A stretch of DNA of 64,000 nucleotides from Volvox africanus (taxonomy: Eukaryota > Chlorophyta > Chlorophyceae > Chlamydomonadales > Volvocaceae): NCBI GenBank assembly GCA_030268105.1, contig BSDZ01000053.1, positions 46,007-110,006 on the forward strand, read 5' to 3'. This document shows positions 7,079 to 64,000 of this stretch, piece after piece. Within the stretch, counting starts at the first letter, position 1, and every line of letters begins with the position of its first letter. The translations under genes and the position numbers were made by a program. The notes under the pieces were generated by a model. That model worked only from the letters and a program-made list of their open reading frames with translations, was not told where the DNA came from and did no database searches.

Positions 7079-7298
7079 ATTGCGTAATTGCGTTGTTGCG
7101 TTGTTGCGTTGTTGCGTGAGTGCGTTGTTGCGTTGTTGCGTTGTTGTGTTGTTGCGTTGCTGTGTTGTTGCGTTGCTGTGTTGTTGCGTTGTAGCGTTGT
7201 TGTGTTGTTGCGTTGTTGCGTTGTTGTGTTGTTGCGTTGTTGCGTGCGTGAGTCCGTATGTGGTTGTGGTGCGGCCCTTTACGCCCTCGTTGTCGTTG

Positions 7299-7369
7299 GC
7301 ACCAGTGGTATAGTGGTAGCATAGGTCCTTGCCACGGACCAGACCCGAGTTCGATTCTCGGCTGGTGCA
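7299..7369 (+). tRNA. tRNA-Gly(GCC) copy 1, fully paired T-stem
   Basis: A 71-nt tRNA with a 7-bp acceptor stem (GCACCAG with CTGGTGC), discriminator A, and anticodon loop TTGCCAC with anticodon GCC at 7331-7333 on a 5-bp stem. The T-stem (CCGAG with CTCGG) is fully paired. The D-stem has an A12-C23 mismatch. No CCA is encoded and there is no intron. The A box TGGTATAGTGG is intact. The first TTTT downstream is at 8554-8557, so no normal Pol III stop is near. It reads GGY codons, that is GGC and GGT. Confidence 0.95.
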
Positions 7370-8068
7370 TCCGACCGCCAGGAACGCAGTCTGCCTCGGA
7401 GAGAGACCTATCCAAGACCTATCTGTAGGGACGCTGCAAGGGAGCTGGAATATATTCGCACACCTACACCCTATTCGTGATACAGCCTGCACGGAACTCC
7501 AGTGCACCTGTCGGCAAAACTGAGAGCAAGAACCCAGTGTGCTGTGGGTTGTGGGGTGTGGGATGGAGCTTGTGTGAGACAGGGAGACACTGCTGCATAG
7601 TAGAAATACTGGGCAGGGGGACTTATTGCTGGTCAATAGCTACTATAAAGGTGAGCGGGAAAACATGTTGATTGGAGTTGAGGAAAGGGCCATCAATGGT
7701 GGCTTATTACACTCCTCAACCTTGTGTAGAAAGGTCAACACCTGTCCATACCTTTGGTGAGGCATTTAACAGCAGCAACCTACAGATGGGAGCAGGTAGA
7801 ACTCATACCACACACACTTGACTTTCATTTAGCATTGCTGCTGTTTAATAGGTAGGATGGGATACATGCTGGCATGGCCATGCATGCATGCAGGCCGTGA
7901 CAGATGTTGTATCCCTCTTCGCTGCTCATGCACTTATCTGCACGTCTTAACGTTAAGTGCCACGTGCCGAATGCTCACAAGACAGACCAAAACATCCAGA
8001 CGCGATATCAGGGGCAGCGGAAGTCTTCAGGAGCAAAAAGGCTACCACTTACAGTCAAAAAGGTGCGA

Positions 8069-8072
<4 letters not shown>

Positions 8073-8108
<36 letters not shown>
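8073..8108 (+). repeat. (GT)18 microsatellite (example, unit 1)
   Basis: 18 GT dinucleotides between GATGCA and TTGGCTATC. The same tract sits at the same place in every unit and ranges from 14 copies (for example 38066-38093) to 23 copies (15452-15497). This makes it a good marker of unit identity. Confidence 0.97.
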
Positions 8109-8111
<3 letters not shown>

Positions 8112-8588
8112 GCTATCAGAACCGACACCAGGCGATCATCATCTAACCGGCTCTCAATGCTCAGGCTTGGCTCGGGCCAATCACAGTGTAATATAGTTCA
8201 GTATGATAATATTGACGATAATCCGATAAGAGCTCGGTAAAAGCGTATGCTATCCGGCCGTTCTCGCACGTAATCTTCTTGTGATACCAATACACGGTAC
8301 ATATCACACCAGATCGTCCATCCACAAGTGTGATAAGCCCTAGCAGACGTATCAACGATATTCTATTCGCATGCAGTATATTTATCATACACAAGCCTTC
8401 CCGGCATTTGTTCAATGTGAATGGCCAAGTATCAATGAATGGCCAACTAACCACTGTGGTTATAGCACTTCTCACACCTATGTGTCGATCATGCCAGCAT
8501 GGAAGTAATGGTATAACCAAACAGTAAATAATAGTACTTAACATGTCATGCCATTTTAATGCTCGTCAACTATGTTTGCCGGCTGGAT

Positions 8589-8754
8589 CCAAACATTTGT
8601 TAGTTGGCGCATTAATGATGCAGCTGGCAACGCAAGACAAGGAATCCCAATTGCATGGATTCCACAATGCATAACTAGCGAAATATATACAGATGTATTT
8701 ATTGACAGCATTGCATATTTTACGTGTGCTTATCACCTTGTTAGGTCGCAGCAA
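8589..8754. repeat. 166-bp presence/absence segment (example, unit 1)
   Basis: Present in long units and missing in short ones. It is bounded by CCAA at 8589-8592 and again at 8755-8758; short units keep one CCAA (for instance near 14246). This fits a deletion between 4-base direct repeats. No terminal inverted repeats suggest a transposon. It contains a GGAATCC/GGATTCC hairpin. Confidence 0.9.
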
Positions 8755-8886
8755 CCAACACATTGATGATAATCAATCCGTAATACAACAGCAGCCATCA
8801 CCAGGTGTTGGTGGCTAGGGTGCAGAGTAAAACTGTGTCTGGAAGGCCAGTTGCCTACCATTGTAGGCCCCCTGCCTCAGAGATCC

Positions 8887-9110
8887 ATTGCGTGATTGCA
8901 TGATTGTGTGATTGTGTGATTGCGTGATTGCGTGATTGCGTAATTGCGTTGTTGCGTTGTTGCGTGAGTGCGTTGTTGCGTTGTTGCGTTGTTGTGTTGT
9001 TGCGTTGCTGTGTTGTTGCGTTGTTGCGTTGTTGTGTTGTTGCGTTGCTGTGTTGTTGCGTTGTTGCGTTGCTGTGTTGTTGCGTTGTTGCGTTGTTGCG
9101 TTGTTGCGTG
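8887..9110 (+). repeat. 8-base minisatellite (example, unit before tRNA copy 2)
   Basis: An uninterrupted run of 8-base words, first mostly ATTGCGTG and then mostly TTGCGTTG, with variants containing GTG, GCGAG, GCGTAA and GTGAGTG. The switch from the ATT type to the TTG type is in the same order in every unit. The plus strand carries almost only G and T with few C and A. One such block precedes each tRNA gene, and its length differs from unit to unit. The first block (7079-7247) is shorter and lacks the ATTGCGTG part. Confidence 0.95.
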
Positions 9111-9162
9111 CGTGAGTCCGTATGTGGTTGTGGTGTGGCCCTTTACGCCCTCGTCGTCGTTG

Positions 9163-9233
9163 GCACCAGTGGTATAGTGGTAGCATAGGTCCTTGCCACG
9201 GACCAGACCCGAGTTCGATTAGCGGCTGGTGCA
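9163..9233 (+). tRNA. tRNA-Gly(GCC) copy 2, T-stem C61A/T62G
   Basis: Same body and anticodon as copy 1, but the 3' side of the T-stem reads AGCGG instead of CTCGG. Two pairs next to the T-loop (53:61 and 52:62) are lost and the B box is altered. Likely inactive or poorly folded. Next tRNA 1886 bp on. Confidence 0.85.
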
Positions 9234-9932
9234 TCCGACCGCCAGGAACGCAGTCTGCCTCGGAGAGAGACCTATCCAAGACCTATCTGTAGGGACGCTG
9301 CAAGGGAGCTGGAATATATTCGCACACCTACACCCTATTCGTGATACAGCCTGCACGGAACTCCAGTGCACCTGTCGGCAAAACTGAGAGCAAGAACCCA
9401 GTGTGCTGTGGGTTGTGGGGTGTGGGATGGAGCTTGTGTGAGACAGGGAGACACTGCTGCATAGTAGAAATACTGGGCAGGGGGACTTATTGCTGGTCAA
9501 TAGCTACTACAAAGGTGAGCGGGAAAACATGTTGATTGGAGTTGAGGAAAGGGCCATCAATGGTGGCTTATTACACTCCTCAACCTTGTGTAGAAAGGTC
9601 AACACCTGTCCATACCTTTGGTGAGGCATTTAACAGCAGCAACCTACAGATGGGAGCAGGTAGAACTCATACCACACACACTTGACTTTCATTTAGCATT
9701 GCTGCTGTTTAATAGGTAGGATGGGATACATGCTGGCATGGCCATGCATGCATGCAGGCCGTGGCAGATGTTGTATCCCTCTTCGCTGCTCATGCACTTA
9801 TCTGCACGTCTTAACGTTAAGTGCCACGTGCCGAATGCTCACAAGACAGACCAAAACATCCAGACGCGATATCAGGGGCAGCGGAAGTCTTCAGGAGCGA
9901 AAAGGCTACCACTTACAGTCAAAAAGGTGCGA

Positions 9933-9973
<41 letters not shown>

Positions 9974-11048
9974 GCTATCAGAACCGACACCAGGCGATCA
10001 TCATCTAACCGGCTCTCAATGCTCAGGCTTGGCTCGGGCCAATCACAGTGTAATATAGTTCAGTATGATAATATTGACGATAATCCGATAAGAGCTCGGT
10101 AAAAGCGTATGCTATCCGGCCGTTCTCGCACGTAATCTTCTTGTGATACCAATACACGGTACATATCACACCAGATCGTCCATCCACAAGTGTGATAAGC
10201 CCTAGCAGACGTATCAACGATATTCTATTCGCATGCAGTATATTTATCATACACAAGCCTTCCCGGCATTTGTTCAATGTGAATGGCCAAGTATCAATGA
10301 ATGGCCAACTAACCACTGTGGTTATAGCACTTCTCACACCTATGTGTCGATCATGCCAGCATGGAAGTAATGGTATAACCAAACAGTAAATAATAGTACT
10401 TAACATGTCATGCCATTTTAATGCTCGTCAACTATGTTTGCCGGCTGGATCCAAACATTTGTTAGTTGGCGCATTAATGATGCAGCTGGCAACGCAAGAC
10501 AAGGAATCCCAATTGCATGGATTCCACAATGCATAACTAGCGAAATATATACAGATGTATTTATTGACAGCATTGCATATTTTACGTGTGCTTATCACCT
10601 TGTTAGGTCGCAGCAACCAACACATTGATGATAATCAATCCGTAATACAACAGCAGCCATCACCAGGTGTTGGTGGCTAGGGTGCAGAGTAAAACTGTGT
10701 CTGGAAGGCCAGTTGCCTACCATTGTAGGCCCCCTGCCTCAGAGATCCATTGCGTGATTGCGTGATTGTGTGATTGTGTGATTGCGTGATTGCGTGATTG
10801 CGAGATTGCGTGATTGCGTGATTGCGTAATTGCGTTGTTGCGTTGTTGCGTTGTTGCGTAATTGCGTTGTTGCGTTGTTGCGTTGTTGCGTTGTTGCGTG
10901 AGTGCGTTGTTGCGTTGTTGCGTTGTTGTGTTGTTGCGTTGCTGTGTTGTTGCGTTGTTGCGTTGTTGTGTTGTTGCGTTGTTGCGTTGTTGCGTGCGTG
11001 AGTCCGTATGTGGTTGTGGTGTGGCCCTTTACGCCCTCGTCGTCGTTG

Positions 11049-11119
11049 GCACCAGTGGTATAGTGGTAGCATAGGTCCTTGCCACGGACCAGACCCGAGT
11101 TCGATTAGCGGCTGGTGCA
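11049..11119 (+). tRNA. tRNA-Gly(GCC) copy 3, T-stem C61A/T62G
   Basis: Carries the same double T-stem change as copy 2, and its flanking unit is also of the one-copy 18-base, long type. Copies 2 and 3 therefore derive from one another. Confidence 0.85.
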
Positions 11120-11818
11120 TCCGACCGCCAGGAACGCAGTCTGCCTCGGAGAGAGACCTATCCAAGACCTATCTGTAGGGACGCTGCAAGGGAGCTGGAA
11201 TATATTCGCACACCTACACCCTATTCGTGATACAGCCTGCACGGAACTCCAGTGCACCTGTCGGCAAAACTGAGAGCAAGAACCCAGTGTGCTGTGGGTT
11301 GTGGGGTGTGGGATGGAGCTTGTGTGAGACAGGGAGACACTGCTGCATAGTAGAAATACTGGGCAGGGGGACTTATTGCTGGTCAATAGCTACTACAAAG
11401 GTGAGCGGGAAAACATGTTGATTGGAGTTGAGGAAAGGGCCATCAATGGTGGCTTATTACACTCCTCAACCTTGTGTAGAAAGGTCAACACCTGTCCATA
11501 CCTTTGGTGAGGCATTTAACAGCAGCAACCTACAGATGGGAGCAGGTAGAACTCATACCACACACACTTGACTTTCATTTAGCATTGCTGCTGTTTAATA
11601 GGTAGGATGGGATACATGCTGGCATGGCCATGCATGCATGCAGGCCGTGGCAGATGTTGTATCCCTCTTCGCTGCTCATGCACTTATCTGCACGTCTTAA
11701 CGTTAAGTGCCACGTGCCGAATGCTCACAAGACAGACCAAAACATCCAGACGCGATATCAGGGGCAGCGGAAGTCTTCAGGAGCGAAAAGGCTACCACTT
11801 ACAGTCAAAAAGGTGCGA

Positions 11819-11857
<39 letters not shown>

Positions 11858-12932
11858 GCTATCAGAACCGACACCAGGCGATCATCATCTAACCGGCTCT
11901 CAATGCTCAGGCTTGGCTCGGGCCAATCACAGTGTAATATAGTTCAGTATGATAATATTGACGATAATCCGATAAGAGCTCGGTAAAAGCGTATGCTATC
12001 CGGCCGTTCTCGCACGTAATCTTCTTGTGATACCAATACACGGTACATATCACACCAGATCGTCCATCCACAAGTGTGATAAGCCCTAGCAGACGTATCA
12101 ACGATATTCTATTCGCATGCAGTATATTTATCATACACAAGCCTTCCCGGCATTTGTTCAATGTGAATGGCCAAGTATCAATGAATGGCCAACTAACCAC
12201 TGTGGTTATAGCACTTCTCACACCTATGTGTCGATCATGCCAGCATGGAAGTAATGGTATAACCAAACAGTAAATAATAGTACTTAACATGTCATGCCAT
12301 TTTAATGCTCGTCAACTATGTTTGCCGGCTGGATCCAAACATTTGTTAGTTGGCGCATTAATGATGCAGCTGGCAACGCAAGACAAGGAATCCCAATTGC
12401 ATGGATTCCACAATGCATAACTAGCGAAATATATACAGATGTATTTATTGACAGCATTGCATATTTTACGTGTGCTTATCACCTTGTTAGGTCGCAGCAA
12501 CCAACACATTGATGATAATCAATCCGTAATACAACAGCAGCCATCACCAGGTGTTGGTGGCTAGGGTGCAGAGTAAAACTGTGTCTGGAAGGCCAGTTGC
12601 CTACCATTGTAGGCCCCCTGCCTCAGAGATCCATTGCGTGATTGCGTGATTGTGTGATTGTGTGATTGCGTGATTGCGTGATTGCGAGATTGCGTGATTG
12701 CGTGATTGCGTAATTGCGTTGTTGCGTTGTTGCGTTGTTGCGTAATTGCGTTGTTGCGTTGTTGCGTTGTTGCGTTGTTGCGTGAGTGCGTTGTTGCGTT
12801 GTTGCGTTGTTGTGTTGTTGCGTTGCTGTGTTGTTGCGTTGTTGCGTTGTTGTGTTGTTGCGTTGTTGCGTTGTTGCGTGCGTGAGTCCGTATGTGGTTG
12901 TGGTGTGGCCCTTTACGCCCTCGTCGTCGTTG

Positions 12933-13003
12933 GCACCAGTGGTATAGTGGTAGCATAGGTCCTTGCCACGGACCAGACCCTAGTTCGATTCTCGGCTGGT
13001 GCA
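12933..13003 (+). tRNA. tRNA-Gly(GCC) copy 4, T-stem G51T
   Basis: The T-stem reads CCTAG opposite CTCGG, so pair 51:63 is a T-C mismatch while the 53:61 pair and the T-loop are intact. This is milder than the other variants. First of the short units; the flank at about 13328 lacks one A. Confidence 0.88.
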
Positions 13004-13701
13004 TCCGACCGCCAGGAACGCAGTCTGCCTCGGAGAGAGACCTATCCAAGACCTATCTGTAGGGACGCTGCAAGGGAGGTGGAATATATTCGCACACCTA
13101 CACCCTATTCGTGATACAGCCTGCACGGAACTCCAGTGCACCTGTCGGCAAAACTGAGAGCAAGAACCCAGTGTGCTGTGGGTTGTGGGGTGTGGGATGG
13201 AGCTTGTGTGAGACAGGGAGACACTGCTGCATAGTAGAAATACTGGGCAGGGGGACTTATTGCTGGTCAATAGCTACTATAAAGGTGAGCGGGAAAACAT
13301 GTTGATTGGAGTTGAGGAAAGGGCCATCATGGTGGCTTATTACACTCCTCAACCTTGTGTAGAAAGGTCAACACCTGTCCATACCTTTGGTGAGGCATTT
13401 AACAGCAGCAACCTACAGATGGGAGCAGGTAGAACTCATACCACACACACTTGACTTTCATTTAGCATTGCTGCTGTTTAATAGGTAGGATGGGATACAT
13501 GCTGGCATGGCCATGCATGCATGCAGGCCGTGGCAGATGTTGTATCCCTCTTCGCTGCTCATGCACTTATCTGCACGTCTTAACGTTAAGTGCCACGTGC
13601 CGAATGCTCACAAGACAGACCAAAACATCCAGACGCGATATCAGGGGCAGCGGAAGTCTTCAGGAGCGAAAAGGCTACCACTTACAGTCAAAAAGGTGCG
13701 A

Positions 13702-13750
<49 letters not shown>

Positions 13751-14058
13751 GCTATCAGAACCGACACCAGGCGATCATCATCTAACCGGCTCTCAATGCT
13801 CAGGCTTGGCTCGGGCCAATCACAGTGTAATATAGTTCAGTATGATAATATTGACGATAATCCGATAAGAGCTCGGTAAAAGCGTATGCTATCCGGCCGT
13901 TCTCGCACGTAATCTTCTTGTGATACCAATACACGGTACATATCACACCAGATCGTCCATCCACAAGTGTGATAAGCCCTAGCAGACGTATCAACGATAT
14001 TCTATTCGCATGCAGTATATTTATCATACACAAGCCTTCCCGGCATTTGTTCAATGTG

Positions 14059-14094
14059 AATGGCCAAGTATCAATGAATGGCCAAGTATCAATG
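14059..14094 (+). repeat. 18-base minisatellite (example, 2 copies)
   Basis: The word AATGGCCAAGTATCAATG occurs twice, followed by a partial copy. Units after tRNA copies 1-3 and 9 have one copy; units after 10, 12-15, 17, 18, 20, 22 and 28 have three; the remaining complete units have two. Confidence 0.95.
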
Positions 14095-14677
14095 AATGGC
14101 CAACTAACCACTGTGGTTATAGCACTTCTCACACCTATGTGTCGATCATGCCAGCATGGAAGTAATGGTATAACCAAACAGTAAATAATAGTACTTAACA
14201 TGTCATGCCATTTTAATGCTCGTCAACTATGTTTGCCGGCTGGATCCAACACATTGATGATAATCAATCCGTAATACAACAGCAGCCATCACCAGGTGTT
14301 GGTGGCTAGGGTGCAGAGTAAAACTGTGTCTGGAAGGCCAGTTGCCTACCATTGTAGGCCCCCTGCCTCAGAGATCCATTGCGTGATTGCGTGATTGTGT
14401 GATTGTGTGATTGCGTGATTGCGTGATTGCGAGATTGCGTGATTGCGTGATTGCGTAATTGCGTTGTTGCGTTGTTGCGTTGTTGCGTAATTGCGTTGTT
14501 GCGTTGTTGCGTTGTTGCGTTGTTGCGTGAGTGCGTTGTTGCGTTGTTGCGTTGTTGTGTTGTTGCGTTGTTGTGTTGTTGCGTTGTTGCGTTGTTGTGT
14601 TGTTGCGTTGTTGCGTTGTTGCGTGCGTGAGTCCGTATGTGGTTGTGGTGTGGCCCTTTACGCCCTCGTCGTCGTTG

Positions 14678-14748
14678 GCACCAGTGGTATAGTGGTAGCA
14701 TAGGTCCTTGCCACGGACCAGACCCTAGTTCGATTCTCGGCTGGTGCA
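14678..14748 (+). tRNA. tRNA-Gly(GCC) copy 5, T-stem G51T
   Basis: Same T51 mismatch as copy 4. The sequence just after the tRNA reads CATCCCACC, as in copies 6-9 and 12, instead of CATCCGACC. Confidence 0.88.
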
Positions 14749-15447
14749 TCCCACCGCCAGGAACGCAGTCTGCCTCGGAGAGAGACCTATCCAAGACCTA
14801 TCTGTAGGGACGCTGCAAGGGAGCTGGAATATATTCGCACACCTACACCCTATTCGTGATACAGCCTGCACGGAACTCCAGTGCACCTGTCGGCAAAACT
14901 GAGAGCAAGAACCCAGTGTGCTGTGGGTTGTGGGGTGTGGGATGGAGCTTGTGTGAGACAGGGAGACACTGCTGCATAGTAGAAATACTGGGCAGGGGGA
15001 CTTATTGCTGGTCAATAGCTACTATAAAGGTGAGCGGGAAAACATGTTGATTGGAGTTGAGGAAAGGGCCATCAATGGTGGCTTATTACACTCCTCAACC
15101 TTGTGTAGAAAGGTCAACACCTGTCCATACCTTTGGTGAGGCATTTAACAGCAGCAACCTACAGATGGGAGCAGGTAGAACTCATACCACACACACTTGA
15201 CTTTCATTTAGCATTGCTGCTGTTTAATAGGTAGGATGGGATACATGCTGGCATGGCCATGCATGCATGCAGGCCGTGGCAGATGTTGTATCCCTCTTCG
15301 CTGCTCATGCACTTATCTGCACGTCTTAACGTTAAGTGCCACGTGCCGAATGCTCACAAGACAGACCAAAACATCCAGACGCGATATCAGGGGCAGCGGA
15401 AGTCTTCAGGAGCGAAAAGGCTACCACTTACAGTCAAAAAGGTGCGA

Positions 15448-15500
<53 letters not shown>

Positions 15501-16427
15501 GCTATCAGAACCGACACCAGGCGATCATCATCTAACCGGCTCTCAATGCTCAGGCTTGGCTCGGGCCAATCACAGTGTAATATAGTTCAGTATGATAATA
15601 TTGACGATAATCCGATAAGAGCTCGGTAAAAGCGTATGCTATCCGGCCGTTCTCGCACGTAATCTTCTTGTGATACCAATACACGGTACATATCACACCA
15701 GATCGTCCATCCACAAGTGTGATAAGCCCTAGCAGACGTATCAACGATATTCTATTCGCATGCAGTATATTTATCATACACAAGCCTTCCCGGCATTTGT
15801 TCAATGTGAATGGCCAAGTATCAATGAATGGCCAAGTATCAATGAATGGCCAACTAACCACTGTGGTTATAGCACTTCTCACACCTATGTGTCGATCATG
15901 CCAGCATGGAAGTAATGGTATAACCAAACAGTAAATAATAGTACTTAACATGTCATGCCATTTTAATGCTCGTCAACTATGTTTGCCGGCTGGATCCAAC
16001 ACATTGATGATAATCAATCCGTAATACAACAGCAGCCATCACCAGGTGTTGGTGGCTAGGGTGCAGAGTAAAACTGTGTCTGGAAGGCCAGTTGCCTACC
16101 ATTGTAGGCCCCCTGCCTCAGAGATCCATTGCGTGATTGCGTGATTGTGTGATTGTGTGATTGCGTGATTGCGTGATTGCGAGATTGCGTGATTGCGTGA
16201 TTGCGTAATTGCGTTGTTGCGTTGTTGCGTTGTTGCGTAATTGCGTTGTTGCGTTGTTGCGTTGTTGCGTTGTTGCGTGAGTGCGTTGTTGCGTTGTTGC
16301 GTTGTTGTGTTGTTGCGTTGTTGTGTTGTTGCGTTGTTGCGTTGTTGTGTTGTTGCGTTGTTGCGTTGTTGCGTGCGTGAGTCCGTATGTGGTTGTGGTG
16401 TGGCCCTTTACGCCCTCGTCGTCGTTG

Positions 16428-16498
16428 GCACCAGTGGTATAGTGGTAGCATAGGTCCTTGCCACGGACCAGACCCTAGTTCGATTCTCGGCTGGTGCA
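16428..16498 (+). tRNA. tRNA-Gly(GCC) copy 6, T-stem G51T
   Basis: T51 mismatch. It lies 1750 bp after copy 5, and by eye the two units are almost the same, including the 23-repeat GT tract. Confidence 0.88.
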
Positions 16499-17197
16499 TC
16501 CCACCGCCAGGAACGCAGTCTGCCTCGGAGAGAGACCTATCCAAGACCTATCTGTAGGGACGCTGCAAGGGAGCTGGAATATATTCGCACACCTACACCC
16601 TATTCGTGATACAGCCTGCACGGAACTCCAGTGCACCTGTCGGCAAAACTGAGAGCAAGAACCCAGTGTGCTGTGGGTTGTGGGGTGTGGGATGGAGCTT
16701 GTGTGAGACAGGGAGACACTGCTGCATAGTAGAAATACTGGGCAGGGGGACTTATTGCTGGTCAATAGCTACTATAAAGGTGAGCGGGAAAACATGTTGA
16801 TTGGAGTTGAGGAAAGGGCCATCAATGGTGGCTTATTACACTCCTCAACCTTGTGTAGAAAGGTCAACACCTGTCCATACCTTTGGTGAGGCATTTAACA
16901 GCAGCAACCTACAGATGGGAGCAGGTAGAACTCATACCACACACACTTGACTTTCATTTAGCATTGCTGCTGTTTAATAGGTAGGATGGGATACATGCTG
17001 GCATGGCCATGCATGCATGCAGGCCGTGGCAGATGTTGTATCCCTCTTCGCTGCTCATGCACTTATCTGCACGTCTTAACGTTAAGTGCCACGTGCCGAA
17101 TGCTCACAAGACAGACCAAAACATCCAGACGCGATATCAGGGGCAGCGGAAGTCTTCAGGAGCGAAAAGGCTACCACTTACAGTCAAAAAGGTGCGA

Positions 17198-17250
<53 letters not shown>

Positions 17251-18193: not shown

Positions 18194-18264
18194 GCACCAG
18201 TGGTATAGTGGTAGCATAGGTCCTTGCCACGGACCAGACCCGAGTTCGATTCTCGGCTGGTGCA
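18194..18264 (+). tRNA. tRNA-Gly(GCC) copy 7, fully paired T-stem
   Basis: One of three copies with an intact T-stem and B box. The unit is short and has two 18-base copies. Candidate for a working gene, but with no nearby T-run terminator. Confidence 0.95.
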
Positions 18265-18963: not shown

Positions 18964-19014
<51 letters not shown>

Positions 19015-51021: not shown

Positions 51022-51062
<41 letters not shown>

Positions 51063-52919: not shown

Positions 52920-52960
<41 letters not shown>

Positions 52961-54055
52961 GCTATCAGAACCGACACCAGGCGATCATCATCTAACCGGC
53001 TCTCAATGCTCAGGCTTGGCTCGGGCCAATCACAGTGTAATATAGTTCAGTATGATAATATTGACGATAATCCGATAAGAGCTCGGTAAAAGCGTATGCT
53101 ATCCGGCCGTTCTCGCACGTAATCTTCTTGTGATACCAATACACGGTACATATCACACCAGATCGTCCATCCACAAGTGTGATAAGCCCTAGCAGACGTA
53201 TCAACGATATTCTATTCGCATGCAGTATATTTATCATACACAAGCCTTCCCGGCATTTGTTCAATGTGAATGGCCAAGTATCAATGAATGGCCAAGTATC
53301 AATGAATGGCCAACTAACCACTGTGGTTATAGCACTTCTCACACCTATGTGTCGATCATGCCAGCATGGAAGTAATGGTATAACCAAACAGTAAATAATA
53401 GTACTTAACATGTCATGCCATTTTAATGCTCGTCAACTATGTTTGCCGGCTGGATCCAAACATTTGTTAGTTGGCGCATTAATAATGCAGCTGGCAACGC
53501 AAGACAAGGAATCCCAATTGCATGGATTCCACAATGCATAACTAGCGAAATATATACAGATGTATTTATTGACAGCATTGCATATTTTACGTGTGCTTAT
53601 CACCTTGTTAGGTCGCAGCAACCAACACATTGATGATAATCAATCCGTAATACAACAGCAGCCATCACCAGGTGTTGGTGGCTAGGGTGCAGAGTAAAAC
53701 TGTGTCTGGAAGGCCAGTTGCCTACCATTGTAGGCCCCCTGCCTCAGAGATCCATTGCGTGATTGCGTGATTGTGTGATTGTGTGATTGCGTGATTGCGT
53801 GATTGCGAGATTGCGTGATTGCGTGATTGCGTAATTGCGTTGTTGCGTTGTTGCGTTGTTGCGTTGTTGCGTTGTTGCGTTGTTGCGTTGTTGCGTGTTG
53901 TTGCGTTGTTGCGTTGTTGCGTTGTTGCGTTGTTGTGTTGTTGCGTTGTTGCGTTGTTGTGTTGTTGCGTTGTTGCGTTGTTGCGTTGTTGCGTTGTTGC
54001 GTGCGTGAGTCCGTATGTGGTTGTGGTGTGGCCCTTTACGCCCTCGTCGTCGTTG

Positions 54056-54126
54056 GCACCAGTGGTATAGTGGTAGCATAGGTCCTTGCCACGGACCAGA
54101 CCCGAGTTCGATTGTCGGCTGGTGCA
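54056..54126 (+). tRNA. tRNA-Gly(GCC) copy 24, T-stem C61G
   Basis: C61G variant. Its downstream flank has an 11-base deletion near 55322 that removes the CCATTTTAATG site, the first T4 run in other units. Confidence 0.87.
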
Positions 54127-54825
54127 TCCGACCGCCAGGAACGCAGTCTGCCTCGGAGAGAGACCTATCCAAGACCTATCTGTAGGGACGCTGCAAGGGA
54201 GGTGGAATATATTCGCACACCTACACCCTATTCGTGATACAGCCTGCACGGAACTCCAGTGCACCTGTCGGCAAAACTGAGAGCAAGAACCCAGTGTGCT
54301 GTGGGTTGTGGGGTGTGGGATGGAGCTTGTGTGAGACAGGGAGACACTGCTGCATAGTAGAAATACTGGGCAGGGGGACTTATTGCTGGTCAATAGCTAC
54401 TATAAAGGTGAGCGGGAAAACATGTTGATTGGAGTTGAGGAAAGGGCCATCAATGGTGGCTTATTACACTCCTCAACCTTGTGTAGAAAGGTCAACACCT
54501 GTCCATACCTTTGGTGAGGCATTTAACAGCAGCAACCTACAGATGGGAGCAGGTAGAACTCATACCACACACACTTGACTTTCATTTAGCATTGCTGCTG
54601 TTTAATAGGTAGGATGGGATACATGCTGGCATGGCCATGCATGCATGCAGGCCGTGGCAGATGTTGTATCCCTCTTCGCTGCTCATGCACTTATCTGCAC
54701 GTCTTAACGTTAAGTGCCACGTGCCGAATGCTCACAAGACAGACCAAAACATCCAGACGCGATATCAGGGGCAGCGGAAGTCTTCAGGAGCGAAAAGGCT
54801 ACCACTTACAGTCAAAAAGGTGCGA

Positions 54826-54866
<41 letters not shown>

Positions 54867-55908
54867 GCTATCAGAACCGACACCAGGCGATCATCATCTA
54901 ACCGGCTCTCAATGCTCAGGCTTGGCTCGGGCCAATCACAGTGTAATATAGTTCAGTATGATAATATTGACGATAATCCGATAAGAGCTCGGTAAAAGCG
55001 TATGCTATCCGGCCGTTCTCGCACGTAATCTTCTTGTGATACCAATACACGGTACATATCACACCAGATCGTCCATCCACAAGTGTGATAAGCCCTAGCA
55101 GACGTATCAACGATATTCTATTCGCATGCAGTATATTTATCATACACAAGCCTTCCCGGCATTTGTTCAATGTGAATGGCCAAGTATCAATGAATGGCCA
55201 AGTATCAATGAATGGCCAACTAACCACTGTGGTTATAGCACTTCTCACACCTATGTGTCGATCATGCCAGCATGGAAGTAATGGTATAACCAAACAGTAA
55301 ATAATAGTACTTAACATGTCATGCTCGTCAACTATGTTTGCCGGCTGGATCCAAACATTTGTTAGTTGGCGCATTAATAATGCAGCTGGCAACGCAAGAC
55401 AAGGAATCCCAATTGCATGGATTCCACAATGCATAACTAGCGAAATATATACAGATGTATTTATTGACAGCATTGCATATTTTACGTGTGCTTATCACCT
55501 TGTTAGGTCGCAGCAACCAACACATTGATGATAATCAATCCGTAATACAACAGCAGCCATCACCAGGTGTTGGTGGCTAGGGTGCAGAGTAAAACTGTGT
55601 CTGGAAGGCCAGTTGCCTACCATTGTAGGCCCCCTGCCTCAGAGATCCATTGCGTGATTGCGTGATTGTGTGATTGTGTGATTGCGTGATTGCGTGATTG
55701 CGTGATTGCGAGATTGCGTGATTGCGTGATTGCGTAATTGCGTTGTTGCGTTGTTGCGTTGTTGCGTTGTTGTGTTGTTGCGTTGCTGTGTTGTTGCGTT
55801 GTTGCGTTGTTGTGTTGTTGCGTTGCTGTGTTGTTGCGTTGTTGCGTTGTTGCGTGCGTGAGTCCGTATGTGGTTGTGGTGTGGCCCTTTACGCCCTCGT
55901 CGTCGTTG

Positions 55909-55979
55909 GCACCAGTGGTATAGTGGTAGCATAGGTCCTTGCCACGGACCAGACCCGAGTTCGATTGTCGGCTGGTGCA
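55909..55979 (+). tRNA. tRNA-Gly(GCC) copy 25, T-stem C61G
   Basis: C61G variant. Long unit, two 18-base copies; the preceding minisatellite is one of the shorter ones. Confidence 0.87.
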
Positions 55980-56678
55980 TCCGACCGCCAGGAACGCAGT
56001 CTGCCTCGGAGAGAGACCTATCCAAGACCTATCTGTAGGGACGCTGCAAGGGAGGTGGAATATATTCGCACACCTACACCCTATTCGTGATACAGCCTGC
56101 ACGGAACTCCAGTGCACCTGTCGGCAAAACTGAGAGCAAGAACCCAGTGTGCTGTGGGTTGTGGGGTGTGGGATGGAGCTTGTGTGAGACAGGGAGACAC
56201 TGCTGCATAGTAGAAATACTGGGCAGGGGGACTTATTGCTGGTCAATAGCTACTATAAAGGTGAGCGGGAAAACATGTTGATTGGAGTTGAGGAAAGGGC
56301 CATCAATGGTGGCTTATTACACTCCTCAACCTTGTGTAGAAAGGTCAACACCTGTCCATACCTTTGGTGAGGCATTTAACAGCAGCAACCTACAGATGGG
56401 AGCAGGTAGAACTCATACCACACACACTTGACTTTCATTTAGCATTGCTGCTGTTTAATAGGTAGGATGGGATACATGCTGGCATGGCCATGCATGCATG
56501 CAGGCCGTGGCAGATGTTGTATCCCTCTTCGCTGCTCATGCACTTATCTGCACGTCTTAACGTTAAGTGCCACGTGCCGAATGCTCACAAGACAGACCAA
56601 AACATCCAGACGCGATATCAGGGGCAGCGGAAGTCTTCAGGAGCGAAAAGGCTACCACTTACAGTCAAAAAGGTGCGA

Positions 56679-56721
<43 letters not shown>

Positions 56722-57792
56722 GCTATCAGAACCGACACCAGGCGATCATCATCTAACCGGCTCTCAATGCTCAGGCTTGGCTCGGGCCAATCACAGTGTA
56801 ATATAGTTCAGTATGATAATATTGACGATAATCCGATAAGAGCTCGGTAAAAGCGTATGCTATCCGGCCGTTCTCGCACGTAATCTTCTTGTGATACCAA
56901 TACACGGTACATATCACACCAGATCGTCCATCCACAAGTGTGATAAGCCCTAGCAGACGTATCAACGATATTCTATTCGCATGCAGTATATTTATCATAC
57001 ACAAGCCTTCCCGGCATTTGTTCAATGTGAATGGCCAAGTATCAATGAATGGCCAAGTATCAATGAATGGCCAACTAACCACTGTGGTTATAGCACTTCT
57101 CACACCTATGTGTCGATCATGCCAGCATGGAAGTAATGGTATAACCAAACAGTAAATAATAGTACTTAACATGTCATGCCATTTTAATGCTCGTCAACTA
57201 TGTTTGCCGGCTGGATCCAAACATTTGTTAGTTGGCGCATTAATAATGCAGCTGGCAACGCAAGACAAGGAATCCCAATTGCATGGATTCCACAATGCAT
57301 AACTAGCGAAATATATACAGATGTATTTATTGACAGCATTGCATATTTTACGTGTGCTTATCACCTTGTTAGGTCGCAGCAACCAACACATTGATGATAA
57401 TCAATCCGTAATACAACAGCAGCCATCACCAGGTGTTGGTGGCTAGGGTGCAGAGTAAAACTGTGTCTGGAAGGCCAGTTGCCTACCATTGTAGGCCCCC
57501 TGCCTCAGAGATCCATTGCGTGATTGCGTGATTGTGTGATTGTGTGATTGCGTGATTGCGTGATTGCGAGATTGCGTGATTGCGTGATTGCGTGATTGCG
57601 TAATTGCGTGTTGTTGCGTTGTTGCGTGAGTGCGTTGTTGCGTTGTTGCGTTGTTGTGTTGTTGCGTTGCTGTGTTGTTGCGTTGTTGCGTTGTTGTGTT
57701 GTTGCGTTGCTGTGTTGTTGCGTTGTTGCGTTGTTGCGTGCGTGAGTCCGTATGTGGTTGTGGTGTGGCCCTTTACGCCCTCGTCGTCGTTG

Positions 57793-57863
57793 GCACCAGT
57801 GGTATAGTGGTAGCATAGGTCCTTGCCACGGACCAGACCCGAGTTCGATTGTCGGCTGGTGCA
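57793..57863 (+). tRNA. tRNA-Gly(GCC) copy 26, T-stem C61G
   Basis: C61G variant. From here on the flank reads GACCGTCAGG rather than GACCGCCAGG, marking a right-hand subgroup (copies 26-29). Confidence 0.87.
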
Positions 57864-58562
57864 TCCGACCGTCAGGAACGCAGTCTGCCTCGGAGAGAGA
57901 CCTATCCAAGACCTATCTGTAGGGACGCTGCAAGGGAGGTGGAATATATTCGCACACCTACACCCTATTCGTGATACAGCCTGCACGGAACTCCAGTGCA
58001 CCTGTCGGCAAAACTGAGAGCAAGAACCCAGTGTGCTGTGGGTTGTGGGGTGTGGGATGGAGCTTGTGTGAGACAGGGAGACACTGCTGCATAGTAGAAA
58101 TACTGGGCAGGGGGACTTATTGCTGGTCAATAGCTACTATAAAGGTGAGCGGGAAAACATGTTGATTGGAGTTGAGGAAAGGGCCATCAATGGTGGCTTA
58201 TTACACTCCTCAACCTTGTGTAGAAAGGTCAACACCTGTCCATACCTTTGGTGAGGCATTTAACAGCAGCAACCTACAGATGGGAGCAGGTAGAACTCAT
58301 ACCACACACACTTGACTTTCATTTAGCATTGCTGCTGTTTAATAGGTAGGATGGGATACATGCTGGCATGGCCATGCATGCATGCAGGCCGTGGCAGATG
58401 TTGTATCCCTCTTCGCTGCTCATGCACTTATCTGCACGTCTTAACGTTAAGTGCCACGTGCCGAATGCTCACAAGACAGACCAAAACATCCAGACGCGAT
58501 ATCAGGGGCAGCGGAAGTCTTCAGGAGCGAAAAGGCTACCACTTACAGTCAAAAAGGTGCGA

Positions 58563-58601
<39 letters not shown>

Positions 58602-59670
58602 GCTATCAGAACCGACACCAGGCGATCATCATCTAACCGGCTCTCAATGCTCAGGCTTGGCTCGGGCCAATCACAGTGTAATATAGTTCAGTATGATAAT
58701 ATTGACGATAATCCGATAAGAGCTCGGTAAAAGCGTATGCTATCCGGCCGTTCTCGCACGTAATCTTCTTGTGATACCAATACACGGTACATATCACACC
58801 AGATCGTCCATCCACAAGTGTGATAAGCCCTAGCAGACGTATCAACGATATTCTATTCGCATGCAGTATATTTATCATACACAAGCCTTCCCGGCATTTG
58901 TTCAATGTGAATGGCCAAGTATCAATGAATGGCCAAGTATCAATGAATGGCCAACTAACCACTGTGGTTATAGCACTTCTCACACCTATGTGTCGATCAT
59001 GCCAGCATGGAAGTAATGGTATAACCAAACAGTAAATAATAGTACTTAACATGTCATGCCATTTTAATGCTCGTCAACTATGTTTGCCGGCTGGATCCAA
59101 ACATTTGTTAGTTGGCGCATTAATAATGCAGCTGGCAACGCAAGACAAGGAATCCCAATTGCATGGATTCCACAATGCATAACTAGCGAAATATATACAG
59201 ATGTATTTATTGACAGCATTGCATATTTTACGTGTGCTTATCACCTTGTTAGGTCGCAGCAACCAACACATTGATGATAATCAATCCGTAATACAACAGC
59301 AGCCATCACCAGGTGTTGGTGGCTAGGGTGCAGAGTAAAACTGTGTCTGGAAGGCCAGTTGCCTACCATTGTAGGCCCCCTGCCTCAGAGATCCATTGCG
59401 TGATTGCGTGATTGTGTGATTGTGTGATTGCGTGATTGCGTGATTGCGAGATTGCGTGATTGCGTGATTGCGTGATTGCGTAATTGCGTTGTTGCGTTGT
59501 TGCGTGAGTGCGTTGTTGCGTTGTTGCGTTGTTGTGTTGTTGCGTTGCTGTGTTGTTGCGTTGTTGCGTTGTTGTGTTGTTGCGTTGCTGTGTTGTTGCG
59601 TTGTTGCGTTGTTGCGTGCGTGAGTCCGTATGTGGTTGTGGTGTGGCCCTTTACGCCCTCGTCGTCGTTG

Positions 59671-59741
59671 GCACCAGTGGTATAGTGGTAGCATAGGTCC
59701 TTGCCACGGACCAGACCCGAGTTCGATTGTCGGCTGGTGCA
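59671..59741 (+). tRNA. tRNA-Gly(GCC) copy 27, T-stem C61G
   Basis: C61G variant of the GACCGTCAGG subgroup. The 166-bp segment of its unit has ATTAATGATG, as in units 1-3, not ATTAATAATG. Confidence 0.87.
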
Positions 59742-60440
59742 TCCGACCGTCAGGAACGCAGTCTGCCTCGGAGAGAGACCTATCCAAGACCTATCTGTAG
59801 GGACGCTGCAAGGGAGGTGGAATATATTCGCACACCTACACCCTATTCGTGATACAGCCTGCACGGAACTCCAGTGCACCTGTCGGCAAAACTGAGAGCA
59901 AGAACCCAGTGTGCTGTGGGTTGTGGGGTGTGGGATGGAGCTTGTGTGAGACAGGGAGACACTGCTGCATAGTAGAAATACTGGGCAGGGGGACTTATTG
60001 CTGGTCAATAGCTACTATAAAGGTGAGCGGGAAAACATGTTGATTGGAGTTGAGGAAAGGGCCATCAATGGTGGCTTATTACACTCCTCAACCTTGTGTA
60101 GAAAGGTCAACACCTGTCCATACCTTTGGTGAGGCATTTAACAGCAGCAACCTACAGATGGGAGCAGGTAGAACTCATACCACACACACTTGACTTTCAT
60201 TTAGCATTGCTGCTGTTTAATAGGTAGGATGGGATACATGCTGGCATGGCCATGCATGCATGCAGGCCGTGGCAGATGTTGTATCCCTCTTCGCTGCTCA
60301 TGCACTTATCTGCACGTCTTAACGTTAAGTGCCACGTGCCGAATGCTCACAAGACAGACCAAAACATCCAGACGCGATATCAGGGGCAGCGGAAGTCTTC
60401 AGGAGCGAAAAGGCTACCACTTACAGTCAAAAAGGTGCGA

Positions 60441-60481
<41 letters not shown>

Positions 60482-61550
60482 GCTATCAGAACCGACACCA
60501 GGCGATCATCATCTAACCGGCTCTCAATGCTCAGGCTTGGCTCGGGCCAATCACAGTGTAATATAGTTCAGTATGATAATATTGACGATAATCCGATAAG
60601 AGCTCGGTAAAAGCGTATGCTATCCGGCCGTTCTCGCACGTAATCTTCTTGTGATACCAATACACGGTACATATCACACCAGATCGTCCATCCACAAGTG
60701 TGATAAGCCCTAGCAGACGTATCAACGATATTCTATTCGCATGCAGTATATTTATCATACACAAGCCTTCCCGGCATTTGTTCAATGTGAATGGCCAAGT
60801 ATCAATGAATGGCCAAGTATCAATGAATGGCCAACTAACCACTGTGGTTATAGCACTTCTCACACCTATGTGTCGATCATGCCAGCATGGAAGTAATGGT
60901 ATAACCAAACAGTAAATAATAGTACTTAACATGTCATGCCATTTTAATGCTCGTCAACTATGTTTGCCGGCTGGATCCAAACATTTGTTAGTTGGCGCAT
61001 TAATGATGCAGCTGGCAACGCAAGACAAGGAATCCCAATTGCATGGATTCCACAATGCATAACTAGCGAAATATATACAGATGTATTTATTGACAGCATT
61101 GCATATTTTACGTGTGCTTATCACCTTGTTAGGTCGCAGCAACCAACACATTGATGATAATCAATCCGTAATACAACAGCAGCCATCACCAGGTGTTGGT
61201 GGCTAGGGTGCAGAGTAAAACTGTGTCTGGAAGGCCAGTTGCCTACCATTGTAGGCCCCCTGCCTCAGAGATCCATTGCGTGATTGCGTGATTGTGTGAT
61301 TGTGTGATTGCGTGATTGCGTGATTGCGAGATTGCGTGATTGCGTGATTGCGTGATTGCGTAATTGCGTTGTTGCGTTGTTGCGTGAGTGCGTTGTTGCG
61401 TTGTTGCGTTGTTGTGTTGTTGCGTTGCTGTGTTGTTGCGTTGTTGCGTTGTTGTGTTGTTGCGTTGCTGTGTTGTTGCGTTGTTGCGTTGTTGCGTGCG
61501 TGAGTCCGTATGTGGTTGTGGTGTGGCCCTTTACGCCCTCGTCGTCGTTG

Positions 61551-61621
61551 GCACCAGTGGTATAGTGGTAGCATAGGTCCTTGCCACGGACCAGACCCGA
61601 GTTCGATTGTCGGCTGGTGCA
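61551..61621 (+). tRNA. tRNA-Gly(GCC) copy 28, T-stem C61G
   Basis: C61G variant. Long unit with three 18-base copies, GACCGTCAGG subgroup. Confidence 0.87.
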
Positions 61622-62320
61622 TCCGACCGTCAGGAACGCAGTCTGCCTCGGAGAGAGACCTATCCAAGACCTATCTGTAGGGACGCTGCAAGGGAGCTGG
61701 AATATATTCGCACACCTACACCCTATTCGTGATACAGCCTGCACGGAACTCCAGTGCACCTGTCGGCAAAACTGAGAGCAAGAACCCAGTGTGCTGTGGG
61801 TTGTGGGGTGTGGGATGGAGCTTGTGTGAGACAGGGAGACACTGCTGCATAGTAGAAATACTGGGCAGGGGGACTTATTGCTGGTCAATAGCTACTATAA
61901 AGGTGAGCGGGAAAACATGTTGATTGGAGTTGAGGAAAGGGCCATCAATGGTGGCTTATTACACTCCTCAACCTTGTGTAGAAAGGTCAACACCTGTCCA
62001 TACCTTTGGTGAGGCATTTAACAGCAGCAACCTACAGATGGGAGCAGGTAGAACTCATACCACACACACTTGACTTTCATTTAGCATTGCTGCTGTTTAA
62101 TAGGTAGGATGGGATACATGCTGGCATGGCCATGCATGCATGCAGGCCGTGGCAGATGTTGTATCCCTCTTCGCTGCTCATGCACTTATCTGCACGTCTT
62201 AACGTTAAGTGCCACGTGCCGAATGCTCACAAGACAGACCAAAACATCCAGACGCGATATCAGGGGCAGCGGAAGTCTTCAGGAGCGAAAAGGCTACCAC
62301 TTACAGTCAAAAAGGTGCGA

Positions 62321-62365
<45 letters not shown>

Positions 62366-63452
62366 GCTATCAGAACCGACACCAGGCGATCATCATCTAA
62401 CCGGCTCTCAATGCTCAGGCTTGGCTCGGGCCAATCACAGTGTAATATAGTTCAGTATGATAATATTGACGATAATCCGATAAGAGCTCGGTAAAAGCGT
62501 ATGCTATCCGGCCGTTCTCGCACGTAATCTTCTTGTGATACCAATACACGGTACATATCACACCAGATCGTCCATCCACAAGTGTGATAAGCCCTAGCAG
62601 ACGTATCAACGATATTCTATTCGCATGCAGTATATTTATCATACACAAGCCTTCCCGGCATTTGTTCAATGTGAATGGCCAAGTATCAATGAATGGCCAA
62701 GTATCAATGAATGGCCAAGTATCAATGAATGGCCAACTAACCACTGTGGTTATAGCACTTCTCACACCTATGTGTCGATCATGCCAGCATGGAAGTAATG
62801 GTATAACCAAACAGTAAATAATAGTACTTAACATGTCATGCCATTTTAATGCTCGTCAACTATGTTTGCCGGCTGGATCCAAACATTTGTTAGTTGGCGC
62901 ATTAATAATGCAGCTGGCAACGCAAGACAAGGAATCCCAATTGCATGGATTCCACAATGCATAACTAGCGAAATATATACAGATGTATTTATTGACAGCA
63001 TTGCATATTTTACGTGTGCTTATCACCTTGTTAGGTCGCAGCAACCAACACATTGATGATAATCAATCCGTAATACAACAGCAGCCATCACCAGGTGTTG
63101 GTGGCTAGGGTGCAGAGTAAAACTGTGTCTGGAAGGCCAGTTGCCTACCATTGTAGGCCCCCTGCCTCAGAGATCCATTGCGTGATTGCGTGATTGTGTG
63201 ATTGTGTGATTGCGTGATTGCGTGATTGCGAGATTGCGTGATTGCGTGATTGCGTGATTGCGTAATTGCGTTGTTGCGTTGTTGCGTGAGTGCGTTGTTG
63301 CGTTGTTGCGTTGTTGTGTTGTTGCGTTGCTGTGTTGTTGCGTTGTTGCGTTGTTGTGTTGTTGCGTTGCTGTGTTGTTGCGTTGTTGCGTTGTTGCGTG
63401 CGTGAGTCCGTATGTGGTTGTGGTGTGGCCCTTTACGCCCTCGTCGTCGTTG

Positions 63453-63523
63453 GCACCAGTGGTATAGTGGTAGCATAGGTCCTTGCCACGGACCAGACCC
63501 GAGTTCGATTGTCGGCTGGTGCA
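63453..63523 (+). tRNA. tRNA-Gly(GCC) copy 29, T-stem C61G
   Basis: C61G variant. The window ends 477 bases after this tRNA, before the GT tract of its unit, so the array continues to the right. Confidence 0.87.
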
Positions 63524-64000
63524 TCCGACCGTCAGGAACGCAGTCTGCCTCGGAGAGAGACCTATCCAAGACCTATCTGTAGGGACGCTGCAAGGGAGGT
63601 GGAATATATTCGCACACCTACACCCTATTCGTGATACAGCCTGCACGGAACTCCAGTGCACCTGTCGGCAAAACTGAGAGCAAGAACCCAGTGTGCTGTG
63701 GGTTGTGGGGTGTGGGATGGAGCTTGTGTGAGACAGGGAGACACTGCTGCATAGTAGAAATACTGGGCAGGGGGACTTATTGCTGGTCAATAGCTACTAT
63801 AAAGGTGAGCGGGAAAACATGTTGATTGGAGTTGAGGAAAGGGCCATCAATGGTGGCTTATTACACTCCTCAACCTTGTGTAGAAAGGTCAACACCTGTC
63901 CATACCTTTGGTGAGGCATTTAACAGCAGCAACCTACAGATGGGAGCAGGTAGAACTCATACCACACACACTTGACTTTCATTTAGCATTGCTGCTGTTT

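Follow-up and report, generated by a model that had tools for sequence, protein, structure and literature searches.

The stretch of Volvox africanus DNA analysed here (64,000 nucleotides, hereafter the window) shows the central part of a tRNA-Gly(GCC) macrosatellite that measures about a quarter megabase or more and is split among four contigs of the assembly. Of its 109 tRNA copies, 105 carry a changed T arm and four a canonical one, and the B box is altered in 97. Tandem tRNA arrays are already known; what is new is that T-arm damage extends over nearly the whole array. Our best reading, which we consider somewhat probable, is that unequal exchange has homogenised a tRNA macrosatellite and that units with a damaged T arm or B box have spread repeatedly within it.

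Organization and extent of the array

ARAGORN predicted 29 tRNA-Gly(GCC) genes in the window, all on the plus strand with starts from 7299 to 63453 (Table 1), which agrees with the 29 units reported in a first-pass annotation of this DNA. Each unit (1.7-1.9 kb) contains a single tRNA-Gly gene with an 8-bp minisatellite upstream of it, together with a GT microsatellite and an 18-bp repeat, the three kinds of internal short repeat described in that annotation. The 8-bp block (TTGCGTTG/ATTGCGTG) lies upstream of the tRNA in 29 of 29 units. A (GT)n run of 14-23 copies was found 3' of the tRNA in 28 of the 29, the last being expected past the window edge, and TRF lists the 18-bp repeat TGAATGGCCAAGTATCAA (2.6 or 3.6 copies) in 24 of the 28 units having a GT run. 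Successive tRNA starts were 1738-1912 bp apart in 27 of 28 cases, in line with the unit length of about 1.8 kb first proposed. The remaining spacing (6268 bp, from 25328 to 31596) corresponds to a single unit that a Copia LTR retrotransposon has interrupted, so that the array makes up less than all of the almost 57 kb it had been thought to fill.

Open reading frames were listed for positions 1-7300 and 25400-31600 of the window. The LTRs of the Copia element (25733-25894 and 30090-30251) are identical over the 158 bp compared, its ORF (25906-30000) is on the minus strand, and the insertion is flanked on both sides by GTGGC. Its protein matched Volvox africanus at 100%, which ruled out the oomycete origin considered at first in view of the Phytophthora infestans arrays described below. 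The array had also been thought to start at 7079. Instead, position 7077 is the edge of another LTR-retrotransposon insertion (C52:38439-53082, C52 being the contig of the window), with a nested Gypsy element whose right LTR lies at 4567-5394. Unit sequence restarts at 7077, and left of the insertion the array resumes with 15 further tRNA copies and extends to base 1 of C52. The right edge of the window (64000) is the end of this 110,006-bp contig. The tRNA calls, repeats and LTR insertions bear out the earlier description of a macrosatellite with one tRNA per unit in a retrotransposon-rich setting.

Table 1. Features of the tRNA-Gly(GCC) array in the window
Feature	Position	Strand	Evidence or remark
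Right part of LTR element (C52:38439-53082) with nested Gypsy element	1..7076	.	interrupts array
Array segment, tandem units with one tRNA-Gly each, LTR insertion to Copia insertion	7077..25732	+	unit homology C52:53083-71742
8-bp tandem block TTGCGTTG, ~50 bp upstream of first tRNA	7080..7245	+	similar block before other 28 tRNAs
tRNA-Gly(GCC), canonical T arm	7299..7369	+	ARAGORN; 57.1 bits
(GT)n run, ~0.7 kb downstream of first tRNA	8073..8108	+	first of 28 in window
tRNA-Gly(GCC), C61A+T62G	9163..9233	+	ARAGORN; 38.8 bits
tRNA-Gly(GCC), C61A+T62G	11049..11119	+	ARAGORN, Rfam
tRNA-Gly(GCC), G51T	12933..13003	+	ARAGORN; 48.8 bits
18-bp repeat TGAATGGCCAAGTATCAA	14057..14103	+	first of 24 TRF-listed places
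tRNA-Gly(GCC), G51T	14678..14748	+	ARAGORN, Rfam
tRNA-Gly(GCC), G51T	16428..16498	+	ARAGORN, Rfam
tRNA-Gly(GCC), canonical T arm	18194..18264	+	ARAGORN, Rfam
tRNA-Gly(GCC), canonical T arm	19958..20028	+	ARAGORN, Rfam
tRNA-Gly(GCC), G51T	21700..21770	+	ARAGORN, Rfam
tRNA-Gly(GCC), C61G	23438..23508	+	ARAGORN; 48.4 bits
tRNA-Gly(GCC), C61G	25328..25398	+	ARAGORN, Rfam
Copia-type LTR retrotransposon inside a unit	25733..30251	-	LTRs, ORF, boundaries
Array segment up to contig end	30252..64000	+	unit homology C52:76258-110006
tRNA-Gly(GCC), G51T	31596..31666	+	ARAGORN, Rfam
17 tRNA-Gly(GCC), all C61G, 71 bp each	33498..63523; starts 33498, 35390, 37292, 39192, 40932, 42844, 44746, 46486, 48382, 50252, 52150, 54056, 55909, 57793, 59671, 61551, 63453	+	ARAGORN, Rfam

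Beyond the window, the array occupies C52 and a second contig (C61) end to end, with insertions, and parts of two others (C25 and C101) reaching a contig end. Orientation and contig ends suggest that the four contigs represent one locus. The total of 109 tRNA copies, which may include as many as 12 duplicate counts from C61, spans approximately 258 kb excluding the part of C61 shared with C52. The spacings of 1.74-1.91 kb in the window, and an array that extends over four contigs, agree with the definition of a macrosatellite as a long array of tandem units of at least 1 kb. The 77 units that we aligned, drawn from 90 copies fetched in the four contigs, average 98.8% identity over 1666 core columns, a likeness far beyond chance. 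Within C52, similarity is 99.45% between next neighbours and approximately 98.9-99.0% at distances near 20 units. Units scattered genome-wide would have spoken against an array; instead, the 109 copies lie on these four contigs, as against four dispersed places with near-identical copies. A DNA search with the whole unit listed at least four places, such listings being incomplete for repeats. We also considered a tRNA-derived SINE and rejected it, as the units are tandem and the locus on another contig, C24, shares with the unit only the 72-bp tRNA and the GT-run stretch.

Canu and Pilon are generally error-prone on repeats, and copy number or arrangement might have been made by the assembler or by polishing. 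Indeed, C61:1-42358 matches C52:16014-58349 at 99.86%, so part of the array may have been assembled twice. That the array is an assembly artefact only is nevertheless very unlikely: the units are distinguished by shared variants, target sites are duplicated at three of the four insertions examined in C52, and PacBio coverage is given as approximately 197x in the available text of PMC10291315. Moreover, the contigs break off within the array, suggesting that the assembly lacks units instead of having surplus ones.

Changes in the T arm and B box

The T-arm changes fall mostly at the G53-C61 pair, within the Pol III B box. Among the 109 copies, the classes were C61G (68 copies), C61T (12), C61A+T62G (9), G51T (8, outside the B box) and G53A (4), with G53A+C61T and G53T seen once each, the latter in an edge unit with further changes. 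G57A was found together with G61 in two copies, one of them with an extra base. Positions in the 3' part of the tRNA were counted back from the 3' end, which makes the numbering of the variable loop and D loop approximate. Several distinct substitutions at the G53-C61 pair have thus each been amplified, with all three possible changes seen at 61 and two at 53. In the window, 26 of the 29 genes have a non-canonical T arm, which the first-pass annotation had overlooked. No substitution was found at sequence positions 1-48 in any of the 90 fetched copies. Beyond the T-arm changes listed above, none was found in the rest of the tRNA either, except in the edge unit and in a single copy with a frame shift. 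Given the background rate, 48 invariant positions are unsurprising.

Seven amplified alleles lie in 12 bp of the T arm versus 37 in the other 1418 core positions. Random placement gave such a cluster anywhere in 3 and 2 of 20000 trials, and in 11 of 20000 when the linked C61A/T62G pair was counted once, the T-arm focus having been picked post hoc, after inspection of the data. On a spacer tree the T-arm classes cluster, with 17 changes compared to at least 25 in 1000 shuffles. The raised diversity, however, is not confined to the T arm but continues into the 3' trailer, over approximately 100 bp in all, with amplified alleles at core positions 74, 75, 80, 99, 115, 119 and 147, and a mutation hotspot explains this as well as selection does. 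Such a hotspot is a serious rival, which we hold as a tentative alternative. The T arm and trailer would mutate faster, through transcription-associated damage, methyl-CpG decay at C56-G57 or recombination, and unequal exchange would amplify the results with no selection for dead copies. It fits less well that none of the Gly changes at 53 and 61 is a CpG change, and that so many substitutions hit these two positions yet none the first 48.

The Rfam tRNA score decreased from 57.1 bits for the canonical sequence to 51.1 (G53A), 48.8 (G51T), 48.4 (C61G) and 38.8 (C61A+T62G). In minimum-energy folds the T-arm hairpin was kept in the canonical sequence, C61T (which leaves a G-U pair at 53-61) and G53A, and lost in C61G, G51T and C61A/T62G, although the predicted fold of the canonical sequence is itself not a standard cloverleaf.

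Possible gene-dosage and structural roles

The first-pass annotation had proposed gene dosage as one role, many tRNA-Gly(GCC) genes together supplying glycine tRNA. All 29 window copies are still called tRNA by ARAGORN and Rfam, above the gathering score, and the 5' part with the A-box region and anticodon is invariant. A functional array of type 2 Pol III genes would, however, have intact B boxes and T stems, and four of 109 copies are canonical. It would also have a close T-run. In the 46 units, out of 77, for which distances were listed, the first TTTT lies approximately 1.2 kb downstream and none is nearer. The latter is weak evidence, because other V. africanus tRNA arrays also have a distant or no TTTT (the sampled Thr and Trp units and one of three Phe units). 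Finally, an exact canonical tRNA-Gly(GCC) gene stands alone at C24, with TTTT 34 bp beyond its end. Together, the changed T arms, the lack of a near TTTT and this intact dispersed gene weaken the dosage proposal, and a working gene battery appears improbable.

Alternatively, the array could be structural DNA (an insulator, heterochromatin or a centromere-type satellite) retained on account of its repeats or of the proteins bound to it, with the tRNA merely the origin of the unit. We regard this as doubtful. The array is large and homogeneous with several LTR insertions. The B box is the main TFIIIC contact, and changes within it in 97 of 109 copies weaken the earlier suggestion of insulation through TFIIIC sites. 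As for published parallels, a human tRNA tandem repeat has been proposed as a boundary element (PMC4041453, in part), and in the accessible sections of PMC8226300 the centromeres of Chlamydomonas reinhardtii are linked to a Zepp-like LINE, which argues against a centromeric role.

Other tRNA families of V. africanus

An organisation of the Entamoeba type would place nearly all tRNA genes of a genome in arrays. With 63 of 7002 candidates scored, arrays were found for Gly, Thr, Lys, Trp and Phe, as well as dispersed copies. The Thr, Phe and Lys sets each have one amplified allele at the 53-61 pair, and over the five families 7 of 25 amplified alleles strike this pair (binomial, 4e-6). Without Gly, the numbers were 3 of 19 for the pair (p = 0.015), 6 of 19 for the B box (p = 0.058) and 10 of 19 for the T arm (p = 0.006), so a multi-family excess at the pair, Gly left out, appears weak. 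None of the three amplified Trp alleles changes the B box. Array copies sampled from the Lys, Phe, Thr and Trp families had Rfam tRNA scores of 61-71 bits, as working genes might.

These families also bear on the hotspot. The Phe changes at C56-G57 (C56T at 69 places, G57A at 12) are both as expected of methyl-CpG decay, and CpG transitions were amplified beyond the T arm too (Thr G70A and Lys G5A, two copies each). On the other hand, no amplified CpG transition was found at the other tRNA CpGs of Phe and Gly among the alleles tabulated, which for Phe are a subset. The idea that the other Phe copies are double mutants was dropped; two of three copies sampled outside the listed stretch were canonical.

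Comparison with known tRNA arrays

In the literature searched, most subscription papers being outside it, neither a tandem tRNA macrosatellite in Volvox africanus nor array-wide T-arm loss is described. In Entamoeba, the available portion of PMC2652664 describes tandem units of one or more tRNA genes whose intergenic short repeats are generally 7-12 bp long; the [R-TCT] unit, with its single tRNA, has repeats of 8 bases. The arrays often have retrotransposons at their flanks, and one of them encodes a suspected snRNA. The Volvox array likewise consists of tandem tRNA units with intergenic repeats in the 7-12 bp range, but its host is a green alga, an intact dispersed copy coexists, and most copies have a changed T arm, which that portion does not report for Entamoeba. 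The first-pass annotation had considered the array exceptional, contrasting Entamoeba with this retrotransposon-rich genome. This argument fails, since long tandem tRNA arrays occur in the repeat-rich genome of Phytophthora infestans, where a single chromosome carries nearly identical tandem copies of one tRNA (for tRNA-Cys, 271), with variants grouped, and read depth confirmed the gene number (PMC9584435, partial text). Both are monomeric, near-identical tandem tRNA arrays; the Volvox copy number comes from the assembly, and array-wide T-arm change is not described in that partial text.

Arabidopsis SYY and tRNA-Cys clusters are tandem and partly pseudogenised. SYY is silenced in most tissues and highly methylated, and the tRNA-Cys repeats have mispairings in the T-stem, acceptor-stem and anticodon-stem (sections of PMC12308677 and PMC10701932). 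SYY resembles the Volvox array in its tandem, partly decayed copies; in those sections, 13 of 54 clustered tRNA-Tyr genes are tRNA-like, versus 105 of 109 changed T arms in Volvox. The human 1q23.3 tRNA VNTR, likened to macrosatellites, has a comparable total size (largest allele, 310 kb) but a 7.3-kb unit with CTCF sites (PMC4041453, same part). Volvocine genomes (Volvox carteri, Chlamydomonas) have many clustered tRNA loci, with 1051 in V. carteri, pseudogenes included, 41% of them clustered within 1 kb (PMC2888827). The excerpt of that article describes no long arrays of kilobase units, and its 1-kb rule would miss the V. africanus array.

Proposed explanation and significance

With nearly all copies damaged in the internal-promoter part of the tRNA, the array resembles a repeatedly silenced satellite rather than a working gene battery. 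In the reading that we favour, it would grow, shrink and homogenise through unequal exchange and gene conversion. Most copies would be poorly transcribed or yield unstable tRNA, and working glycine tRNA would be supplied by dispersed genes together with the few copies still intact. Less surely, units with a damaged promoter or T arm may have spread because they are better tolerated than a long series of strong Pol III genes with few terminators, or else than copies making defective tRNA. A broader version is speculative: large tandem tRNA arrays might be burdensome, units losing the B box or the G53-C61 pair being favoured or filtered and spread by exchange, so that V. africanus arrays in several families would repeatedly become promoter-dead satellites, with genetic silencing replacing or following epigenetic silencing.

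One practical consequence is that gene dosage can be overestimated when tRNAs are counted with gene finders, as in the window, where every copy was called and 26 have an altered T arm. More broadly, these results touch on the ability of cells to tolerate Pol III genes by the hundred in tandem, and on the conversion of a gene array into a satellite. V. africanus has several tRNA arrays with differing T-arm change, and in one of them several different changes at a single base pair have been amplified; this combination makes promoter-first decay, mutation hotspots and epigenetic silencing separable.

Structure and extent of the array

ARAGORN placed 29 tRNA-Gly(GCC) genes in the window, all on the plus strand and 1738-1912 bp apart in 27 of 28 steps. 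Upstream of all 29, TRF recovered an 8-bp block; it also found 28 GT runs and, in 24 units, the 18-bp repeat, bearing out the 29 units with three kinds of short repeat described in the first-pass annotation. Part of the units (e.g., in window 12933-23438), several of them adjoining each other, are shorter by about 150 bp; by eye, the stretch of spacer between two CCAA words appears to have been deleted. The long step (25328-31596) is accounted for by a Copia element flanked on either side by GTGGC. Its insertion is probably recent, since its ORF is open (1364 aa) and its LTRs are identical across the 158 bp compared; the encoded protein matches one of Volvox africanus at 100% identity. On the left side of the window, no target duplication of the outer LTR element was seen when looked for.

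Coordinates of array segments, inserted elements and other tRNA arrays
Feature	Location	Copies	Remark
Unit sequence	C52:1-10414		homology to unit
Unit sequence	C52:14048-32579		homology to unit
Unit sequence	C52:37714-38438		725-bp piece, homology to unit
Unit sequence	C52:53083-71742		homology to unit
Unit sequence	C52:76258-110006		homology to unit
Array	right end of C25	23
Array	throughout C52	44
Array	throughout C61	23
Array	right end of C101	19	minus strand
Copia element	window 25733-30251
Right portion of LTR element, with nested Gypsy element	window 1-7076
tRNA-Thr(TGT) with U2 snRNA tandem array	C22		fetched: 55001-60100 (L027)
tRNA-Lys(CTT) tandem array	C40, C100
tRNA-Trp(CCA) tandem array	C11
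tRNA-Phe(GAA) tandem array	C98:252591-444365		units ~1 kb

Excerpts of its report describe the V. africanus 1101-NZ-11 assembly as 129 gap-free contigs (141.0 Mb, PacBio ~197x, Canu and Pilon; PMC10291315); the genome analyzed here comprises 126 contigs (141.0 Mb). Because unit sequence occupies C52 (the window's contig) at base 1 and at 110006, the array extends past both contig ends. Four contigs carry 109 copies, among which 12 on C61 may be counted twice, as C61:1-42358 matches C52:16014-58349 at 99.86% (8 mismatches). This 42-kb stretch, which includes LTR insertions, may be a duplicate assembly, a variant form of the array within the culture, or a genuine duplication; it stops short of the Copia site, C61 has no Copia copy, and beyond it unit order differs between the contigs. 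With the overlap removed and insertions included, the array measures ~258 kb, and orientation and contig ends suggest that all four segments may belong to one locus. At the left edge on C25 (C25:1832430 onward), by-eye reading found a seemingly scrambled first unit with a partly inverted spacer and extra changes in its tRNA, immediately preceded by a Gypsy-like coding stretch. Four dispersed places closely match the tRNA 3' half (C24, C13, C26, C16); C24, the only one read full-length, is an exact canonical gene.

T-arm changes

The G53-C61 pair is near universal in tRNA, and positions 52-62 are the B box. Ninety copies were fetched as sequence, the other 19 being known through pattern matches only. 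Substitutions at sequence positions 1-48 were absent from the 90, and changes 3' of the T arm were confined to the edge unit (C25:1832430) and one frame-shifted copy.

T-arm classes (tRNA numbering) and Rfam scores
Class	Copies (of 109)	Window (of 29)	Rfam score
Canonical	4	3	57.1
C61G	68	19	48.4
C61T	12
C61A+T62G	9	2	38.8
G51T	8	5	48.8
G53A	4		51.1
G57A with G61	2
G53A+C61T	1
G53T	1
Edge copy			40.5

Minimum-energy folding preserved the T-arm hairpin of the canonical sequence and of C61T and left G53A with a shortened one, whereas C61G, G51T and C61A/T62G had none. These predictions weigh little because none of the six, canonical included, gave a standard cloverleaf. Gene dosage and TFIIIC insulation, both proposed earlier as functions, fit most copies poorly: the T arm is canonical in 4/109, and most are T-arm/B-box-damaged.

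Aligning the 77 normally spaced units among the 90 (1430 core positions) gave 44 alleles in at least two units, seven at core positions 49-60 (tRNA 51-62) and none at 1-48. An equally tight cluster arose anywhere in 3 and 2 of 20000 random placements, or in 11 of 20000 with C61A/T62G as one allele. Trailer alleles (core positions 74, 75, 80, 99, 115, 119 and 147) count against this statistic, showing that raised diversity continues from the T arm into the trailer. Either selection or a mutation hotspot may drive the pattern.

Adjacent C52 units are 99.45% alike; identity drops to ~98.9-99.0% near distance 20 and climbs again towards distance 30. T-arm classes required 17 changes on the spacer tree, whereas each of 1000 label shuffles needed at least 25. 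Both neighbor likeness and this clustering fit local unequal exchange or conversion.

Other tRNA arrays

Places within three mismatches numbered 32 (Thr), 24 (Lys) and 9 (Trp), all listed, and 200 for Phe, of which 100 and a few more were listed, nearly all on C98. Amplified alleles (in at least two copies) of the 53-61 pair were Thr G53A (7), Lys C61T (2) and, among the Phe places listed, G53C (3, on C75). Phe C56T (69 places) and G57A (12) are CpG transitions in the B box. Across five families, amplified alleles fell on the pair in 7/25, the B box in 11/25 and the T arm in 16/25 (binomial 4e-6, 6e-4 and 2e-5); excluding Gly, 3/19, 6/19 and 10/19 (0.015, 0.058 and 0.006). These figures are rough because alleles are partly dependent and Phe is represented by the listed places. 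Amplified changes beyond the T arm are present in Thr, Lys, Trp and Phe. The 2.33-kb C22 unit pairs a tRNA-Thr(TGT) gene with a full-length U2 snRNA gene (142 bits) and contains a (TACCC)n run; the 5.1 kb fetched holds two U2 and three tRNA copies.

Interpretation

Judged from sequence, the array is best explained as a tRNA macrosatellite in which exchange would keep units alike while T-arm/B-box-damaged units spread again and again. Tandem tRNA arrays are already a known kind, judging from excerpts on Entamoeba (PMC2652664), Phytophthora infestans (PMC9584435), Arabidopsis clusters (PMC12308677, PMC10701932), a human tandem repeat (PMC4041453) and clustered loci in Volvox carteri (PMC2888827). 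Those excerpts contain no near array-wide, recurrent T-arm change, and it is this change, rather than the tandem array itself, that appears to be new in V. africanus.
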